Made by a program: the position numbers and the translations under genes
In this document: piece by piece, positions 2,091 through 15,513 of the stretch
Numbering within the stretch: position 1 is the stretch's first letter
Layout: each line of letters starts with the position of its first letter
Assembly: GCA_004369085.1 (NCBI GenBank)
Contig: ML210503.1
Span: forward strand, 1 to 20,043
Length of the DNA: 20,043 nucleotides
Direction of reading: 5' to 3'
Origin: Coprinopsis marcescibilis
Lineage: Eukaryota; Basidiomycota; Agaricomycetes; Agaricales; Psathyrellaceae
The notes under the pieces: model-generated
Database searches by the model: none
What the model was told of the DNA's origin: nothing
What the model saw: only the letters and a program-made list of their open reading frames with translations

Positions 2091-2097
2091 GACAGAG

Positions 2098-2315
2098 TAC
2101 GGTTGACAAGAACGTCGTGGATGGATTTTCCCATGCGACCACATTTCGGCGTCCACCGAGCCAGTTCCTACACATCATACCTGCGCACCCTCGTACCTAC
2201 CGCAGCTTCTATACACTCAATTTGACTCTGGAGGTCATAGAACAAGCTTAAAAAGTGGTATATAGGTATATAGCAGGTACATATGCTGTCCAACTATCTT
2301 AGCTACAGATGCCAA
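2098..2315 (+). repeat. Left terminal inverted repeat of element 1
   Basis: Reverse-complementary to 7814-8031. Over the outer ~141 bases I count 14 differences by eye, 13 of them transitions. Inward of about 2240 the match falls to roughly 70% but stays alignable to 2315. It lies 79 bp beyond the integrase stop codon. Confidence 0.85.
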
Positions 2316-2394
2316 CTGCATAACTTACCCATGCTGTGTAGGGCTCTGGCTATGAACACTGAAGCAATGTGAAGTGAGTGCGTACTTGAGCATA

Positions 2395-4022
2395 CTAATC
2401 TAACATATCTCTAATAGCATCAGACATGGTCTGAAAGACATCCCAAGCATTGTCTAGAGTGGTAGGAGGTTGACTGACTGAGGTATATGCAACCTCAGCA
2501 ATGGCTTTGAAATCATCGCTAAACCAACAGGAAAAGGTTTCTCGTGGACCAACCTCTTCCTCAATCAGATGTCTTGTTTGTTGCTGGATGTCCTCAGGAA
2601 CCCTGATCAGGCAGTTCAGAGCGTTGGAATCGTACTCCTCAGGGTGCTGAATAGCATTGGCAGGCACATGACCTGATGGCATATGCTTGTAAACCTGTGT
2701 GTGGACTCAGTGATGATTCCAGTATGTGCGGAACGAGTCAAGTTCACCCTGAACCAGTAGGATAAAAACCCAGTAGAACAAGTCACTAACATAATGCATA
2801 AGGAACGGGTACTGTTGCCTGAGGAGTACACATACGTGTGGTATGCGCACTGTGGCTGGAAAATGTGCGAAGATTTTCCCTGAAGGATGATCTCCTTCAA
2901 TGTGTGTCCCATTTTAACCTGGAGCCATTGCCACAGAGACTCGATAATGGTGTTATGAGCACTCATTATGGCCATTGCTGTTGCAAAGACCTCAGGGTCA
3001 ACATCTGGTGCAAGAAGGCATCTGTAAATGAGCCAGTGAGGTTTGAGAGTTTAAGTTAAAATATCAAAAATAGCCTCACCTCAGAGCATCTTGAATGCTT
3101 TACTGGATTCCACCTTCAGGACCTTTGTCAGTTGTGAGTTGAAGGGGGACCCCTAGCAAAGGACAATTTATGTGTCAGGCAGCTAACATAAAGTACAGAA
3201 CAGAATGACAAACCTCCACATTCCACAATAAGATCCAGATAGAGGTGACCCAAAGGTGCTGCACTTTGAGAGTCTGGTACAGCAACAAGCTTGATAATAA
3301 ATCCAGACCACTTATCCCAGTAAGCATAGATAGGAATGCTAATATCCCCCATCTGCAATGCTTGAGAATTCAGTTTCTCATGGCCGTCTGCAGAGACCTC
3401 TTGGTAAGGGCCCAACGAAAGCAGAGGAATATGCAGTATCAGCAACATTTTAGCGCCCAGGCATCGCAAATCAAAGCCTTCAGATGCAATGTCCTTCATA
3501 AGCAAGTGCAGCTCGTCGCTGATGTGGAGATGAGAAGAGAAAGGTGGGTATTAAACGCACAGACCACTGGAGTAGAAGAAAATGGCTTACCAAGCAATTA
3601 ATATATGCTCGTCTTGAAGCATTGACTTCAAAGCATGCAGACTGGTTCCCTGGGTCACATCTTTCTTGATAAAGTCTGTTGCTGTTTTTCTAAGGACCTC
3701 CTTTGGTAACTGGGGTTTCTGAACAGTTGGAATCTCAAGCTGGTCCTCAAGCTCCTGTAGCTTGGTCTCACTTGTTAAGAACTGATCAGATCGCATATAG
3801 ACAAAAGGGAGAAACAAACAAACCCAATAGATAGATTAAATTTTCGCTTGAGGTGCTTAATCTTATCTTTTCGCGTGTACTTCAAGCGAACACACTCAAG
3901 CAGTGCTTCTCTAAGCTTGTTGTCAGGGGGATCTAGAAGCAGTCAAGTCAACAATAGAGACAATGTATTTGTTACTCACAGTCTTTCCAACCCCACTGAT
4001 TACTACCAGATGGATTGGGCAT
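2395..4022 (-). pseudogene. Integrase-core (DDE, rve-like) protein, two in-frame stops
   Basis: Seven exons reconstruct as 4022-3980, 3932-3824, 3770-3591, 3518-3214, 3152-3080, 3021-2836 and 2785-2395, with GT-AG introns of 47-72 nt and consistent phases: 429 codons including the stop. The product matches the integrase-core family that is abundant in basidiomycete genomes. It starts MPNPSGSNQ, continues with a helical region ending in ILIA, and has acidic residues in SADGHEKL (D155), TTDKG (D221) and HNTIIES (E264), which fit a DDE triad. A C-terminal MPSGHVP segment leads to a tail ending near AWDVF. Two stops interrupt the frame: TAA at 3102-3100 (codon 230, between the second D and the E) and TGA at 2709-2707 (codon 325, within WNHH-stop-VH where the family usually has R). 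It is therefore probably dead. An upstream in-frame ATG at 4334 exists, but the family N-terminus favours 4022. Confidence 0.82.
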
Positions 4023-4416
4023 AGTAAATGTGGGGACAGCAAGCAAAGGAGTGTGAGGAACAGGTAGAGAAAGAGATGGAAAGGAGTTGGATAGGTTGAT
4101 GATATCTTGTTCAAACATTGGCAAGCTTTTATAGAAAACAGTGTCAGGGACTTGTCTCAATGTTTTGTGCTTGTACTTGCCCCAATCTTGACGGAGGCCA
4201 CAAGAGGCATTATGCCATTTCTCAAAGTATTGCTCTGGCCATGGCAATAATTTTGGGGAGTGGAGTCCTGTGAAACATCTCATACACAGAGCCCTGGGCA
4301 GCATGGGCACCTCATAAGCGCCAAGAACTTGCATGCATCAATGGGAACAAGGGTTCCAACTCAAATCGTTGATTCAGTTCCTGAAATGGAGATTTCAAAT
4401 AACACAGGTATCTGGT

Positions 4417-4523
4417 GTCTGGTGCACTAATATAAGAGATATAGTCTGGTGCACTAATATAAGAGATATAGTCTGGTGCACTAATATAAGAGATATAGTC
4501 TGGTGCACTAATATAAGAGATAT
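4417..4523. repeat. 27-bp tandem repeat, four copies
   Basis: Four essentially identical head-to-tail units begin GTCTGGTGCACTAATATAAG and end AGATATA; the last copy loses its final bases. Because the unit is a multiple of three it leaves open frames on both strands (periodic peptides such as WCTNIRDIV), but these are repeat artefacts. The array lies between the two divergent genes, and each unit holds a palindromic GTGCAC and a TATA-like ATATAAG. Confidence 0.95.
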
Positions 4524-4618
4524 TAGGTATGGTGTACAGGAAGGATACCGATGAAATTGAAATGGTTTTGACTGCACCTGCATTGGAATTTACTGATAAC
4601 AAGTGCTGCTGCAAGCGT

Positions 4619-4647
4619 CCCCATCAATCCCCATCAATCCCCATCAG
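4619..4647. repeat. 10-bp tandem repeat, about three copies
   Basis: The unit CCCCATCAAT is repeated nearly three times. It is followed at about 4690-4780 by a degenerate array of GGGAATGAGG and GGGAACAAGG units, which together form a small minisatellite zone. Confidence 0.85.
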
Positions 4648-4976
4648 CCCACCAACTATGTAGTAAGACTTGAAACTTTGATAGGAGAAAGGTCGGGAAT
4701 GAGGTCGGGAATGAGGTATTGAGAACAAGGCCATTGGGAACAAGGCCTTCAGGAATGAGGCTGTTGGGAACAAGGTTGGGATTCTGAGCTGGTGCGCATT
4801 GTGCACAACCAAGAATATGGCAGTGTACCAGGGTCCAGGATGTTATGCGCCAGTTACTTGCCAGTTATCTCGGAGTGTCAGGACTTCTGAAGCCTAAGTT
4901 CAACCCGGACATCCGACCAGCGTTGGCTCCAGGTGCTGGTCCCTGGATGGCTTGTTTCTGTTTTTGGGGCCATAGA

Positions 4977-4985
4977 TATATAAAG
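4977..4985 (+). promoter_or_regulatory. TATA-like box upstream of the alpha-kinase gene
   Basis: TATATAAAG lies about 75 bp upstream of the proposed start codon at 5060, a plausible distance for a fungal core promoter. Only the motif and its position support the call. Confidence 0.4.
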
Positions 4986-5059
4986 TCATCTTCAGTTGGG
5001 TACATGTCCTGCCATCTGACCTCTTTCAGCCTTTCCATGCAGCCAGTAACTTATATCAC

Positions 5060-7768
5060 ATGTCTTCTACCACTATTCTCAATTGTGGTGACTGCCGCAA
5101 TACATTCACTTGTGCGCCTTTAGCTCACGTGATGTGTGAGAAGTGCGTTGAGCTTGGTAAGCACCCATACCAGTCTGATGCATATAACAAGGTCATGGTA
5201 TGTCCCACTCCCTCCTAAATGTTCCTATGCTATTCAACTCTGTTTTCCATCCGGGTCATCTACTAGAGGTGGCCTCAGTGTGTTCAGTGTGGTCGGTCAT
5301 GGAGGAATGCAATCCAAACACTGCAAAGATATGCACTACCTGTGCACCTCAGGCAGTTGATTCAAATGGGCAAGCCAGTGCTGTACCAACCAACAAAGGT
5401 GTACTGGGTATGTGTTACTATGTCTACCTTGTTTAATCGATGCAATTAGCATGCTCACATTACAAACTTCAGCCATTGATTGCTATTGAGCATCCCAGGC
5501 TCATACTCTCGAGGGCACAACAGCCCGGCGAGCTGAGTCGTTGTTTCAGACTCTGAGAAACTCAACTGCAGCTCTTCCAACATTGGGTCTGACCACGGAG
5601 GTACTGCAGTCGCACGAGAACACCATGCATAGTGTGGCTTCCGTTAATAGTGGGAAACGCACTGATGCAGTTGTTGTTGAAATTAAGGTCAGTTTCTTTT
5701 GTTCAACGAATTAAGGTTGACTCATGTTGATTTTTATTTGTTGACTCTGATAGTACCGCCTTAGTGGGAAGCCTAAGGTGTTGGCAGACCTCTATGGCTC
5801 AAACGTTGCAGCATTTGGCTTGGACACAACACTTTGGGGTATGCTCCCCTATTCCCTCTGTTTTCTATGATTTTTCTGATGTCTTTTCAGATATTCAGGA
5901 CTGTGCATTGAAGCACTTTAACCTGACTTGGACAAAGAGTGGTCGATCACCAGTTGCTGTGTGAGTATTCTCAGTCTCTGAGGTGCCAGAATTCATACTT
6001 ATGCTTTCTATGATCTATCCTAGAACTGAGACCACCTTGTGGCAGCGGGATAATGGGAACATTGATCAGGACTTGACAGGGGCCACACTCAAAGAGTATG
6101 TTGCGCACTTGGCAGAAACAGGCCTTTCCACCGCCCCTGCTGCGTCTACCAAGTTTGGAAAGAAGACCTCGGCTCAGCAAAAGCGGTCGGCTGTTTCATT
6201 CGAGCTTTTTATTTTTGAGAACATGGTAGGGCTCTAACTTCTTCTTGACAACAACTTGTGTTTATTCTGACTGTACAATCATTTCCAGTACCTAGAGCGC
6301 ATGGAGAACTATAACTCTGTCCCTGCATCAGAGCTAGGTAAGGGAGGTGGGAAAAGGGATAGGACTGGGTCAATGGAGTTGTCCACAGGGGAAAAGGCAC
6401 CTTCGAAGGTTCAGAGAGTTGCAGGTTGTGGTAAGCTACCTGTACATTTTAAAAATGCTCTCTGTCTAACATCGTCCACTCAGGCTTTGAATTTCATTCG
6501 TTGTTCTCCTTGAGTTCACGAAGCACATCAGCTAAATCAAGCTCAGGCCCCATTGATCTGAGCACACATGTAGTTGTGCAGAAGATCGAATGTATGCATC
6601 TCACTGTAGAGGGCCAACCTGTCTTTGTTCAAAAGGTGAAGGTCAATGCACTTGTAGCAGACTCTTTTTTGGCTCATGGCTCAATGGAGGCTGTCTTTGA
6701 GGTATGTGTTTTGCTTGCATCAAAATCTACAGAATCATAATCGATTGAACCATTGTTCATAATCCAAAGATCACCTTTCCTGATTCGAAAAGCACAACCA
6801 AGTATATTGTGAAGCGCTTCTTTAGGCTTACCACCTTAAGTAGTAATGAGGACAACAATGGAGCAATGCCAACCCCTGACATGTCTTCCATCCCCTTCAC
6901 TGTGGATGAGCATTCTGCAGAAATTTGCGCCAAATGTGTTCGCTTAGCCCAGGGCTCGCAGTTTCTGAAGGACTTCTACAAGGCCTGTCAGAAGAAGGGC
7001 ATTGATGTTTACAAACGTGAGTTCTCAATTAACACGAGTAATTAGTGACATTAGATCTCCGGTTCTAACTCGTATTAGATCTCCAGTTTGCAAACTTGTG
7101 GCTACTTCAAGAGTGCAGAGTTGTGTCAAAAGCATCTGGTATGCTTGGCACAAGCAGTGCAGACAGCGACTTCGCTGATGCCCTAGGCATGGGGCTTACT
7201 TGGTTGATGGAGGAGAGGCATGTGAGTTCACATGTTACACGCTTTAGTGGAACTTTGCAGCATGCATCAGTGCACTCGGAGATCTCTCATTTGACCATTT
7301 ACGCATTTGCGCACTTTGTACTTGAGTCTACCAAGCATCAGATTGTCTGTGCTGACTTACAAGGTACGCCTATGTTTGGTCTTTAATGGTCAACGTGCGT
7401 GGGCGCTCACTTGGTTTAAATATCAGGGACCCCTATCTCACTTTGACATGCTGGCGAATGGGTTGAAGGTGTTCTGCTCTTTGATCCCATGACTCACACA
7501 GCTACTGTGTATGTACACATTTATGCTTTCGTGCTGAGCAGAAGGTCTAAGGTCTGATCTCAGGGACTCTGGCGTTGGTGATCACGGTATTCAAGGCATC
7601 AACTCGTTTTTGAAGCAGCATCGGTGTGGAATAATCTGCGAGGGCCTTTGCCTTACCCAACCTGGAGAGTCCGATCTTCTCGATGAGGATGAGTACGAGG
7701 TCATTCTCAGCGATACTGATGGTGACATTGGGAACAACAACTCTGAAGTTGCCGTTGAATCTGTTTGA
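5060..7768 (+). CDS. Alpha-type (MHCK/EF2K-like) protein kinase, element 1 cargo; possibly interrupted
   Basis: Twelve exons fit GT-AG introns and phases: 5060-5197, 5267-5407, 5499-5687, 5754-5838, 5891-5960, 6024-6225, 6289-6430, 6484-6701, 6770-7016, 7079-7363, 7427-7508 and 7564-7768 (668 codons with stop). The N-terminus is cysteine-rich (C9, C12, C18, C26, C29, then CVQC at 51-54), suggesting zinc-ribbon modules. A linker region precedes the C-terminal kinase domain. Family marks are IVKRFF (K410, the likely ATP-binding lysine), FSGTLQH, CADLQG (D570), LFDPMTHT (H596), the glycine loop SGVGDHG (603-608) and QHRCGIIC, whose cysteines with the histidines would bind the structural zinc. 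Alpha-kinases phosphorylate Ser/Thr in helical substrates; the target here is unknown. With the standard acceptor at 7426, an in-frame TGA at 7444-7446 falls between DLQG and LFDP. A TTGAAG acceptor at 7468 would skip it in frame, giving about 653 aa. Confidence 0.8.
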
Positions 7769-7813
7769 GGTGTTACGAGTAGATAGGGATACTTTCAAAT
7801 GGAATTTCCTTTG

Positions 7814-8031
7814 TTGGCACCTGTGGATAAGAGTAGTGGACACTATCGGTACATACTCTAGACCCATCTATCACTATCTATACTTGTTTTACGACCTCCA
7901 GAGTCGAATTGAGTGTATAGAAGATGCAGTAGGTACGAGGGCGCGCAGGTACGATGTGTGGGAACTGGCTTGGCAGATGCCGAAATGTGGTTGCATGGGA
8001 AAATCCATCCACGACGTTCTCGTCAACCATA
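7814..8031 (-). repeat. Right terminal inverted repeat of element 1
   Basis: Mirror copy of 2098-2315, beginning 46 bp beyond the alpha-kinase stop codon. It ends at the GACAGAG duplication (8032-8038). Its outer end is the more conserved part, as expected for a transposase-recognised terminus. Confidence 0.85.
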
Positions 8032-8038
8032 GACAGAG

Positions 8039-9631: not shown

Positions 9632-12600
9632 CTACTCCCACCGTCGAATCGAATGATTGTGAATATAGTTGTTGTAAATACCTGCAGAAGGCTCTTCTGC
9701 GCCATGCGAACGGAGCAATTCTGCAGTGTCGTGTTCGGCTTCTTTCAACGCACGGGCCAACGCCGTTCTCCCGTTTGGAGGCGCATAATCGATGAAAATG
9801 TCTTCGTGTTGGAGGAGCATTTCGACAGTGGATTTATGACCACCCTCCGATGCACACATTAAGGCTGTTCTTCCATCCTTGGGCAGATAGTTGACGTTGA
9901 TGCCTTTCACGCCAAGTAGCGTTTCCACGATGTCCTGGTGCCCACGCAGTGCTGCTTCAACCAGCGCCTCCCCACATTCGCTAACGAAGCTCGCTTCTTC
10001 ACTAGAGTCGCCTTCGCTTAGATTCTTGATGTTTGTACTCTGGAACCGAACGAGGGCTCTGACAACTTCGACATGACCTTCATACGAGGCCAACGTCAGA
10101 GCTGTCTCGCCACCCTCATTCCTACTACTGGCGTGGTTTGTGCCGACAACCGCAAGCAGCATCTCCACAATTTCCAAGCTTCCACTGTTCGCTGCAAGCA
10201 TGAGAGCTGTATCTCCGTTGCAATCGCCCAAAGCCACATCAATTCCCTCAACATTGAGAAGGACTCGAATCGTCTCAGCATGGCTGAAATATGTTGCGAG
10301 TACTAGAGCTGTTGATTCTTCGGACGCCCGGGCATTGATATCAAGGTCTGGGGGGGAGGGAGGCGGGAATTGTGATTGGGATCCATCAGCAGGGTGGCAG
10401 CTGGGATGGAACCATTCTTCGAGTAGTTCGTGGAAGTTGTAGGCGGCAGCTACGTGTATCGAGGAGCCCGTGTACGCAAGATATTCGCTGTTGTTGAGAC
10501 ATATTGGAAATACGGAGCCGTGAAGGATAAATTCCCGGGTTGAGGCTGGAAGTGCATCGGAGAGATGTGAATGTCCTGCCCATCGGCGTACTGAGTAACG
10601 CAGAAAGAAAGGGTTCTTTTCGAAGATGTCATCCAGGTACTGACGTCGTTGGGAATAGTTTGCCTGAGTGTCCACCGGAAGGTTGTTGAGGTTGAATTGC
10701 ACCAGACGTGCAACACAAGTAGACGCAAGCATTGCATGGGGATCAGGGTCCTCGCGTTTCAAGTAGGGCTCCAGATAATCCTTGGCCGTGTAGTCTACAC
10801 GAAGCGGTCAACTTGGATTGAATTGTGAAAATCCCAAAGCATACTTACGAACGAGTCGAACCAGTCCACTTTCAGATTCAAAGGTGACCAGGCCGCAACA
10901 CAAGGAGAGAAGGGTAGGACCATCAATGAGAAGTTCAGAGTCAAACTGGAAAGTCTTGGGATCCACCGCGATGGCGTATCGGAGGTCGTCCATTTCCAGG
11001 GAATCGAGTGCATGCACCAGCCATGTAAGAGCACGTTTGGCCTTTGCAGCCTGTTTGTGCGCCTTCACCCGCAACATGGTTGCCTGGTACATGGCTTCCA
11101 CACCGATTGGGAGTGTTTTCACTGCTTGACGTAATTCTTGGATGTCAACGCAATCTACGAGTGTGTCCAGCTGTAGAGACGCAACCAAAAACCTATCGAG
11201 ACATTTGAGAGACAGAACCGGAATTTTGACGCACAACTTACATGCCAGAGGATTTTTCAATGATTGTTTTGACAACCCATTGCTTGAATTCGTCTTTCGC
11301 AAGGAGCCCTTTAAGTGTTGGTATCTGGCGAACCTTTTCCTCAATGAGTCGCTCGATGTCCGCATCCTGGAGAATGATGCTGAAGTGGTCTGCTGTTGGA
11401 ACGTTGTCTTCGAGAAGATGTAAAGGGCGCGACGTTATGAGGAGGTTAATTGGCAGCTGGGAAAGGGAGTCAAGAAGCTCGAATTGGGTGGTGGATTTGG
11501 CTTCGTCCAAGCCGTCCAACGAGCAGAATCTCTCGTCAAAGAGATTGGAGGTGAAGATTGCCTCGAGAACAACGATCAACTCTTGCTTCGATGGACGGGT
11601 TTTTCGGAGCAAATGGTGATCGTGCATGCGCTGGATGTACACGATGGTCTGCGGATGGTCTTCAAGAATCTGGCGGAGGAGGCCTGCCAGAATCTCTTCG
11701 ACGGCTAAGGCGTCAGTGTAGCGGGAAAAGGCAAAGGCAACACAGATTCGCTTATTGCTCTTTGCAAGTTCCATGAGGTATTCGACGATTATGGACCTGT
11801 GACAATGTTAGACAGTTCAAAGATATGTCGAAGCACGACCTACGCTAAGATTGTCTTTCCTGCGCCAGCTATGCAGACGTGGTGTGTTAGTTACTGTCAG
11901 ACTCGAAGGATGCTGAGCTACGTACGCATACCAGTCCCCCACAGGATCCCGCGAGGTCCCTTCCTCCATTTGCAAAATTTTGGCTCTGAAAGAACCCAGC
12001 GTCCTGTCTTTCCGACCCTCTTGCGGAGATGGTCGGCTAGAAAATTGCGGAAGTTGATACTGCTGAGGGCTTCCGCAACCACTGCAATGTCTATGAAACC
12101 ACCATCAGGAAACGCGCACAATGAGCGTACAGCAAGCCTCTCACCTCGTGTTGATAAATTAGGGACTACGACAGTATGAGCGTTGATGAAAGTAGTCGTC
12201 CCGCTAAAATCGAGATTGCTGGCTCCCTGGAATGAATGTGTCGAGGGCCCAGAGACTGGATTTACAGCCTCAGGAACGCGGCCGCCTACATGCGAATATG
12301 TCAGGCACCACCGGCCAACATGGCAATAAACGGACGTACCACTATTCGAGGACGATCCTGGTCGGTACACAGAGCTCGCAGTGACGGGCTCATTGACGGG
12401 TCGACGGCTATGGTGTGATTCGGCCGGGATGCTGCTGTGGTGGTACTGAGCATAGCCTCCTGCACCCGCTTGGGACGAATACAGGGGTCCCGTTTGCCAG
12501 TTTTCCATAGCTATCAGGGCGTGCGGAGGGTTATAGCTTTTCCCTGAGATAGGGTAGCCAAGTGAATGCGGTGGAACGTAGTTCTGCTGGTATTGGGATT

Positions 12601-13744: not shown

Positions 13745-13750
13745 AACGTG

Positions 13751-14092
13751 TACGGTGTTCGAGAAGGGTAAGGTTCGATTTTTCACGCGCGAGCTCAAGT
13801 GATGCCGACCTTCGGTGGCTATGTTGTCGTGTGCCGCCGTGGAGATGGAGCTATTTGACCTCCTGAGACTGTTAACTTGTACCCAAGGGCTCTCTAGGGT
13901 TGTATATACTAATTTTGAGCTGAATTCTGCATGTTATAACTGTCTGTCAAAGGGGAGGCCCGGTATAGCTGAGAGACCGACGCTACCTGCGAGTGCAGTG
14001 TGGCTGTGCGGCGCGTTTTGACCAGCCACAGTCAAACCTTATTTAAACGTTTTGCATCTACAGCTAAGGGATTCTACGGGTATGGAACTGTA
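13751..14092 (+). repeat. Left TIR of element 2, split by a 169-bp insertion
   Basis: Bases 13751-13839 pair with about 15419-15507, and 14009-14092 pair with about 15301-15412. The intervening 13840-14008 has no counterpart in the right arm. The unmatched block is bordered by similar GTGTG(C/G)C(C/T)G sequences, suggesting a small insertion with a target duplication. It contains no recognisable gene. Confidence 0.75.
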
Positions 14093-14297
14093 AGTGATAC
14101 ATAAGAGACCGCACTGACCAAGTTTGATGACCTCCGGATTGGATACCGGATGGTTGCGTTGGATTTGGTTCAAATTCCGTTGTGGACCCTGCGTACTACA
14201 GGTACACGCGTAAACTTAGCGTAAATTCGATATAAACTTGCTGCTAAATAATACAAGCATAAGCCTAATGAATTGTAGCAATACAAATGGACCGGGT

Positions 14298-14636
14298 CTA
14301 GACATCGGTGGCGTAACTAGTAAGATTAGCAAGCCCACGAGATTTCTTTGCTGCCTTCTCGATAGGGGCTGTCCCCTTTCCAAGAAACTCGATGCTATCG
14401 TTTGAAGACAATGATGCCAGCTGTTCTTCAATCTTGACGATACTCTTATCAGTGGAGTCCTCTTCCGCTGCGCCATTCTTGAGGGGTAAAAGACCAAGCC
14501 CTTTGCAGATTGAGTTGCATTCGTGTTGATTGACAAAGCCTTGGAGGCCAAAACCACCGAGGTCGCCCAAGCCGTACTTCATATCAGAGCCAGTATCGTA
14601 ACAAGGGCGGTGGTCAGTATTTGGCGCAAACTTCGG
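14298..14636 (-). pseudogene. Alpha-kinase C-terminal fragment (element 2)
   Basis: The minus-strand frame ends with TAA/TAG-type termination at 14298 and contains YGLGDLGGFGLQGFVNQHEC followed by NSIC. This is the glycine loop plus Cys-x3-Cys zinc site that closes the alpha-kinase domain; element 1 has SGVGDHGIQGINSF and QHRCGIIC at the same place. A hydrophilic tail of about 75 residues follows, as in element 1. Everything upstream (N-lobe lysine, DLQG) is missing because the frame meets the integrase fragment near 14637. It is a remnant, not a functional kinase. Confidence 0.75.
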
Positions 14637-14935
14637 TCCATCGAATTCGCGGGCAGAAGAAGACCTTGCTGCCATCGGATGCTCGAAGAACAGACATATT
14701 CCTCTCCCCAGAGCTTTTTGGTGGGGATAATCAGCTCATATCTATTCCTAATGAGGACATAGATGCACTTATTGAAGAGCACGACAATCCCGAGGTCTTT
14801 CAGTTTGGGTCTGCCGAGATGAGGAAAACCTATGTAGAGATTTACAATGCCATTGGAAACCCCGAGCTTCAGCCGGTCAAGGGTTGGGATATCTGGAAAG
14901 CGATGTTAGAGCAGTATATGACTCATTATATGTAG
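14637..14935 (+). pseudogene. Integrase-core C-terminal fragment (element 2)
   Basis: The plus frame begins at the deletion junction with HRIRGQKKTLLPS, the basic motif that follows the catalytic domain in basidiomycete integrase-core proteins. It continues through LFGGDNQLISIP to VKGWDIWKAM before a TAG at 14933-14935. Element 1's integrase has the equivalent MPSGHVP and LDNAWDVFQTM segments. The catalytic D, D and E residues are all lost. The fragment reads toward the right TIR, the same relation as in element 1. Confidence 0.7.
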
Positions 14936-15059
14936 TACTATACCTACTGGCTGCATCAGTAAAATGATCCATAGCGTGTGCGAACTTGGGCAAGTCCAAA
15001 AAGCCCAAAAATATCAAGAAATTTCCATTTTAGGGAGTGGTCTGGCATTGTCGAAAAGC

Positions 15060-15190
15060 CAGGTATTACTTTTGGAAAAGTGATGATCACTTTTCTCCTA
15101 AACGGGGTCTCTACCCGCCAAAAATGTGGCCACTTTTGGCTACTTTGTGACATTTTGACGTAAGGACTTGCCAAAAGTGAATAAGTCCAA
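15060..15190. repeat. Palindrome-rich zone inside element 2
   Basis: AAAAGTGATGATCACTTTT (15076-15094) is a near-perfect palindrome. GCCAAAA (15117-15123) pairs with TTTTGGC (15134-15140), and GGACTT...AAGTCC flanks 15167-15191. The same words (CCAAAAGTG, CACTTTTGG) recur in both orientations. It may be a nested small foldback element or a subterminal binding region; no target duplication was identified. Confidence 0.5.
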
Positions 15191-15300
15191 CAAGGCGGGA
15201 AGTTTTCGCCCCTTTTCCTGATGTGGTAGCTACGGCAACAAGTATAATGATCCTGTTCGCGCTTTTCAAATAGGAGGGCTCCGGATGTCGCAAAACTGGG

Positions 15301-15507
15301 CCTATACAGTCCCATAGTCATTATGAGCAACTTTGTAATTATACTCTTCCTTAGCTACACATGCAAAACGTTTAAATCTGGTTTGACTGTCCCTGCAACT
15401 ATTCCTCAAAACGCGCCGCAGCAGCACACGAAGACATAGCCACCGAAGGTTGGCATCACTTGAGCTCGCGCGTGAAAAATCGAACCTTACCCTTCTCGAA
15501 CACTGTA
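15301..15507 (-). repeat. Right TIR of element 2
   Basis: Reverse complement of the left arm without the 169-bp insertion. It includes the shared blocks at 15435-15507 (nearly identical) and about 15349-15412 (more diverged). It ends at the AACGTG duplication. Confidence 0.75.
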
Positions 15508-15513
15508 AACGTG

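Follow-up and report, generated by a model that had tools for sequence, protein, structure and literature searches.

Boundaries and gene content of the element

The window analysed here is the entire contig C349 of the agaric Coprinopsis marcescibilis (20,043 bases). Between positions 2098 and 8031 it contains an element in which a DDE (Asp-Asp-Glu) transposase gene and an alpha-kinase gene lie between two terminal inverted repeats (TIRs). The left TIR (2098–2316, + strand) starts TACGGTTGACAAGAACGTCGTGGAT, and the right TIR (7813–8031, − strand) finishes ...GTCAACCATA. The arms are 219 nt each and agree without gaps at 182 of 219 positions (83% complementary), with 20 matches in the outermost 22 nt. 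Two copies of GACAGAG, at 2091–2097 and 8032–8038, directly adjoin the arms. Since the arms match up to the boundary and the heptamer is present on both sides, the element measures 5934 bp and is flanked by a 7-bp target-site duplication (TSD). The original prediction, made from the sequence of the window, had placed both ends and the direct repeat correctly to the base, with arms of 218 bp.

Going inward from the ends, the inverted-repeat match (50-nt steps, no gaps) starts at 94%, has dropped to 34% by 300 nt, and is 22% farther in. Reading outward past the arms, it is 24–35% over 10–100 nt, i.e. random. A larger segmental duplication, which the original prediction had named as a possible objection, was therefore rejected: the match is confined to the arms and stops at the element boundary. 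A chance origin was likewise rejected, as none of 2000 simulated sequences gives both TIR and TSD and the sister copies described below carry TSDs of their own. On the same three lines of evidence, the probability that the locus holds two unrelated genes between chance or duplicated inverted repeats is negligible.

Both genes are transcribed outward from a shared central region, where a tandem repeat of four 27-bp units (4417–4523) lies between their 5′ ends. Each gene ends within 80 bp of a TIR, as had been proposed (2395 versus 2316 for the transposase, 7768 versus 7813 for the kinase).

The transposase gene occupies 2395–4022 on the − strand in several exons (MPNPSG... to stop; exon joints modelled) and is of the IS3EU type. 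Searched exon by exon against Pfam, it gives no integrase match. Its predicted identity is borne out by its sister-copy homologues P0001 and P0002, which match PF24764 ('Integrase core domain') at 3.1e-11 and 1e-10, and by a 425-position profile from 31 homologues, of which the window gene covers, in pieces, positions 15–424 (except 230–236). PF24764 is the sole Pfam match of P0001 at E up to 0.1, and a PDB sequence search with the transposase profile returned chance-level matches only. The DDE residues, whose roles were assigned in this analysis, are conserved, and the modelled fold resembles Mu/TnsB/IstA/PFV integrase. The window gene is broken by an in-frame TAA (3100–3102, − strand) in the exon holding the second catalytic Asp (TTDKGPE), after this residue, and the window copy is therefore probably not autonomous. 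A full-length annotated homologue is present on C384 (P0001); P0002 as annotated is without the stretch bearing the first Asp. Some exon joints in the gene models are uncertain. Neither the premature stop nor the second element at 13751–15507 had been noted in the original prediction.

The alpha-kinase gene (5060–7768, + strand) is modelled with 12 exons and 658 aa, in which N-terminal Cys pairs are followed by the alpha-kinase domain. PF02816 agrees with the gene identity first proposed, matching a single window exon at 1.9e-07 and the publicly annotated protein (P0122, FA15DRAFT_710745, 491 aa), which omits part of the domain, at 5.7e-15. P0122 scores 56.3 bits and its sister P0121 91.1 bits, at a gathering cut-off of 21.3. 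The VKRF lysine and the DLQG and H-x-C-x3-C motifs, aligned to a solved alpha-kinase, are present in the gene model, and we take them to have the catalytic and zinc-related roles familiar from this family. By profile and model, the domain shares its family and fold with alpha-kinases of solved structure (MHCK A, Entamoeba alpha-kinase, ALPK1, eEF2K, and TRPM7/ChaK). It differs from these in that identity in the fold matches is 13–18%, the N-terminal half of the element kinase lies outside the sequence matches, and the gene is element-borne. The structure model has a mean predicted local distance difference test score (pLDDT) of 56 and is usable for the domain alone. Ubiquitin-like matches for the N-terminal half are weak (E 0.03–0.09) and are not claimed here. 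In P0121, a beta-beta-alpha-beta stretch is predicted at residues ~119–184, ahead of the kinase domain.

Related elements in the C. marcescibilis genome

A search of the genome with the left TIR finds 11 places, including the two in the window. Further copies that contain both genes lie at C211 (5650 bp) and C384 (5710 bp), each flanked by a 7-bp duplication of its own (CCCACGG and CCATGTA, respectively). Besides the window element, five others in this genome have the pair in the same orientation, and both genes point outward from the middle in all six elements where both were found. The TIRs measure 179 nt in C51 and 107 nt in C87. The proposal of a transposon copy that pairs a DDE transposase with an alpha-kinase is thus matched by recurrence of the pair in copies delimited by TIRs and flanked by separate duplications. 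As regards two departures considered in the original prediction, the pair without TIRs and TIRs independent of the genes, this recurrence speaks for the link between TIRs and genes; TIR-bearing derivatives with only gene parts do exist.

Alpha-kinase sequence (PF02816) was found at 14 places in the genome, which is a lower bound. Both termini and an exact duplication are present at 7 of the 14, with 7 bp in C349, C211, and C384 and 6 bp in C51, C87, C54, and C11. C26 has both termini (22/22) and a duplication agreeing at 6 of 7 positions, while C314 and C33 have both termini with one flank past the contig end. A single terminus is seen at C111 and C337, each at a contig end, and at C279. At least one terminus is present at 13 of 14 places; at C9 no convincing terminus was found (best 15/25 against known ends). 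Places do not equal insertions, as CTCGTG is common to C314 and C111 across the break and the two are probably one 1418-bp insertion. Judged from sequence, most alpha-kinase sequences found in C. marcescibilis are located inside such an element or at its end.

In a control with motif and thresholds set after the termini and duplications had been read at the kinase loci, 10 kinase places lying clear of contig ends were considered (all but C314, C33, C111, and C337), and 7 of them combine a terminus pair (18/22) with an exact duplication of 6 or 7 bp. The same combination occurs in none of 2000 Markov-1 sequences and at none of six other loci (L039, L040, L041, L046, L047, and L048), which were not drawn at random but are transposase-like and lack a complete kinase.

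Transposase-like matches lie on 15 contigs. Nine have adjoining kinase sequence in the same element or a derivative, one has pieces, four have none that was found, and one (C238) is cut off at the contig end. C54 and C11 have a Pfam kinase and no transposase was found there, which speaks against a fixed pair. The kinase profile missed these two kinases, which Pfam found, and kinase absences elsewhere are therefore not firm.

Two side observations concern loci with one gene of the pair. At L028 (C54, 2094–6441) and L029 (C11, 4094–6664), the TIR- and TSD-bounded sequence carries a divergent Pfam alpha-kinase, with no transposase found. At L041 (C155, 2109–8740), a PF24764 transposase well above cut-off lies between TATGGCRGGCG inverted termini, together with further open reading frames (ORFs) without a Pfam match over cut-off; no alpha-kinase and no duplication were found.

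Assignment to the IS3EU superfamily

Passages of Kojima 2025 (PMC12730594) describe TET-bearing IS3EU families with TIRs >30 bp, TAYGG..CCRTA ends, and 6-bp duplications, in which the TET gene lies between a transposase gene and an alpha-kinase gene in opposite orientations. These TET+ families come from rusts and a truffle, and alpha-kinase genes of fungal IS3EU are mentioned there in passing. The original prediction knew of no described eukaryotic transposon superfamily with an alpha-kinase; Kojima's description shows that there is one. In the part of PMC10045372 that treats them, IS3EU termini are given as TA..TA, with duplications usually of 6 bp, a wording compatible with 7 bp in some members.

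The window element ends in TACGG/CCATA and fits TAYGG..CCRTA, a pattern that is also found in C211, C384, C26, C51, C87, C54, and C11. It shares with IS3EU these termini, TIRs >30 bp, the integrase-type DDE transposase, and the alpha-kinase in opposite orientation, and TSDs of exactly 6 bp occur in C51, C87, C54, C11, and the second window element. It differs in the 7-bp TSDs of the window, C211, and C384, and its host is an agaric, in contrast to the rusts and truffle of the TET+ families in the passages of PMC12730594. Among the candidates of a loose first look, no TET/JBP gene was found in these elements, and the genome's one PF12851 match is on C302. A second 2-oxoglutarate (2OG)-oxygenase family gave no matches here nor in the control genomes and is hence uninformative. 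Its 7-bp duplication and lack of a TET gene aside, the window element fits IS3EU, and we therefore assign it as a TET-less IS3EU-type element. Taken as a whole, the observations are best explained if the locus is a cut-and-paste DNA transposon copy of this TET-less type, with the kinase as an accessory protein, a reading to which we give a probability of about 0.82.

The 7-bp TSDs of C349, C211, and C384 would also be compatible with another superfamily that makes duplications of this length, such as the hAT7 group of rusts (7-bp TSDs according to passages of PMC12730594), or with an undescribed one. However, the TAYGG..CCRTA termini, the integrase-type DDE core, and the oppositely oriented alpha-kinase all agree with IS3EU as described, and C51 and C87, which belong to another TIR lineage with the same gene pair, make 6-bp TSDs. 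We consider membership in another superfamily improbable. hAT7 itself was rejected, as its TSD length fits but the termini and the PF24764 integrase-type transposase do not.

Two known systems are similar by description. GingerRoot, which is grouped with IS3EU in PMC10045372, has mostly TA..TA termini, 6-bp TSDs, and a related transposase; it differs in that the word 'kinase' occurs 0 times in the text of that paper as retrieved. TET/JBP-bearing fungal transposons (KDZ, hAT7, IS3EU, and others) likewise have a second enzyme gene beside the transposase, but in the present element that enzyme is a protein kinase instead of a TET/JBP dioxygenase.

Selection and shared history of the two genes

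Comparisons of the two genes between copies bear on the assignment as a TET-less IS3EU-type transposon with an accessory kinase from both sides; the restrictions given with the values below, and the observations that follow them, weigh against it. Among C349, C211, and C384, the ratio of nonsynonymous to synonymous substitution rates (dN/dS) is 0.08–0.10 for the transposase (412–426 codons) and 0.12–0.19 for the kinase (446–580 codons), values that are rough because dS is 1.4–2.6, near saturation, and for which codons were taken from aligned blocks, favouring low dN. Of the 19 gene comparisons listed, 12 are saturated (C349, C211, or C384 versus C26 or C6). At the level of these alignments, both genes are under purifying selection between copies. 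Over six C. marcescibilis elements, transposase and kinase identities correlate with r 0.88 (1 of 720 permutations as high), a value carried largely by two clusters and in which the C51 and C87 kinases are compared over 91–109 positions only. When four pairs from other species are added to give ten, r is 0.45 (Mantel p 0.0006). The one misfit is Favolaschia claudopus, where the kinases P0128 and P0132 are 91% alike and their presumed partner transposases 54% alike; kinase partners may have been exchanged between elements, or the contig-based pairing may be wrong.

Two features of the elements themselves point in the same unfavourable direction. At the transposase-like loci C155, C237, C263, and C50 (9.9 kb read) no kinase was found, and at C6 N-terminal kinase pieces only. 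The TSD is exactly 7 bp in the window, C211, and C384, compared with the usual 6 bp of IS3EU, and IS3EU membership was judged from published descriptions.

The transposase search found 131 homologous proteins at E up to 0.001; among the 120 listed, 5 are from C. marcescibilis, and the organisms named are, as we assume, mushroom-forming fungi. The kinase-region search found 13 proteins, 9 of them from other species. Four of these nine share a contig of equal size with a listed transposase of the same species, which indicates the same contig and not adjacency (Ephemerocybe angulata, 202,827; Favolaschia claudopus, 2,068,807 and 2,337,621; Mycena galericulata, 1,971,151). For the remaining five, no contig agreement was found with any listed transposase. 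The kinase occurs in two lineages, between which the transposases are only 22–27% alike.

Possible roles of the kinase

In the mechanism that we propose, the transposase of intact copies would pair the TIRs, excise the element, and insert it with 6–7-bp staggered cuts. The window copy would be movable only with enzyme from another copy. The most likely role of the kinase would be that of an accessory protein kept because it helps the element. It could phosphorylate the transposase or chromatin or repair factors and so set the timing of transposition. Alternatively, it could weaken silencing, by analogy with the kind of role that Kojima, in passages of PMC12730594, proposes for the TET/JBP gene, which in rust elements lies between the transposase and kinase genes.

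The kinase might instead be cargo, either passive or of use to the host, that an ancestral element picked up a single time and that has been carried along since. It evolves faster than the transposase according to the dN/dS values above, it occurs without a detected transposase in the TIR- and TSD-bounded C54 and C11, and some transposase loci have no kinase that was found. Against this, the kinase is constrained and its motifs are common to divergent copies, its position and orientation are the same in all six elements with both genes, and it accompanies both transposase lineages; the rust and truffle TET+ IS3EU also carry it, as stated in passages of PMC12730594. We therefore regard cargo as unlikely. 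A regulator or anti-silencing role seems likelier than passive cargo, given that the kinase is constrained, keeps a fixed position, and occurs in both lineages. As a eukaryotic transposon that encodes a protein kinase subject to purifying selection, the element makes a role of phosphorylation in DNA transposition directly testable.

Alpha-kinase expansions in fungi

Fungal genome papers treat alpha-kinases as host families. In the table excerpted from PMC4469406 (Table 3), Melampsora larici-populina has 79 alpha-kinases and Puccinia graminis tritici 39; the mean over seven Agaricomycetes is 5, the seven remaining species of the table have none, and the accompanying text calls the family highly expanded in rusts. 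The family also appears in a table of Pfam domains in the excerpt of PMC5295586, and one alpha-kinase is among 46 genes under diversifying selection in that of PMC4150398. Rusts are also where Kojima found kinase-bearing IS3EU, according to passages of PMC12730594.

The idea that kinase expansions reflect transposon spread, put forward in the original prediction, fits the C. marcescibilis genome and is carried to other genomes by extrapolation; such fungal 'expansions' may be transposon copies. A broader proposal, which we hold tentatively and at somewhat under even odds, is that fungal IS3EU elements have the alpha-kinase as a regular second gene, gained before the agaric and rust elements split and acting as a phosphorylation switch or anti-silencing factor, and that the rust and mushroom 'expansions' measure element copy number and not host signalling genes. 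If the kinases are transposon genes, published family counts and selection results need rereading. Within the listings and passages of the literature searched, no paper linking alpha-kinase expansions to transposons was found, and both 'alpha-kinase' and 'IS3EU' were found only in Kojima (PMC12730594). The alpha-kinase in fungal IS3EU is thus already described.

A second element and its neighbours

The window contains a second, internally deleted IS3EU-type element of 1757 bp (13751–15507, − strand), 5.7 kb from the first, flanked by TSDs read as AACGTG at 13745–13750 and 15508–15513. It belongs to the TIR subfamily of the C51 element (TACGGTGTTCGAGAAGG), whose start it resembles at 22 of 25 positions. 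Its ends are TACGG/CTGTA; the right end reads TACAG, and the element is therefore not listed by a CCRTA scan. It retains the tail of an alpha-kinase gene (14301–14735, − strand; profile E 1e-07, Pfam below cut-off at 18.9 versus 21.3 bits) and the tail of a transposase gene (14534–14932, + strand; profile E 6.9e-12, no Pfam match), in reverse order to the first element. Its TIR recurs at C276 and at C401, where termini 882 bp apart (5020–5901) delimit a candidate miniature element of this TIR family.

Between the two elements, the − strand of 9632–11807 carries ankyrin-repeat ORFs (9632–10807) and a NACHT-like NPHP3_N stretch (11238–11807), which are probably one host gene resembling those for NOD-like receptors (NLR-like).

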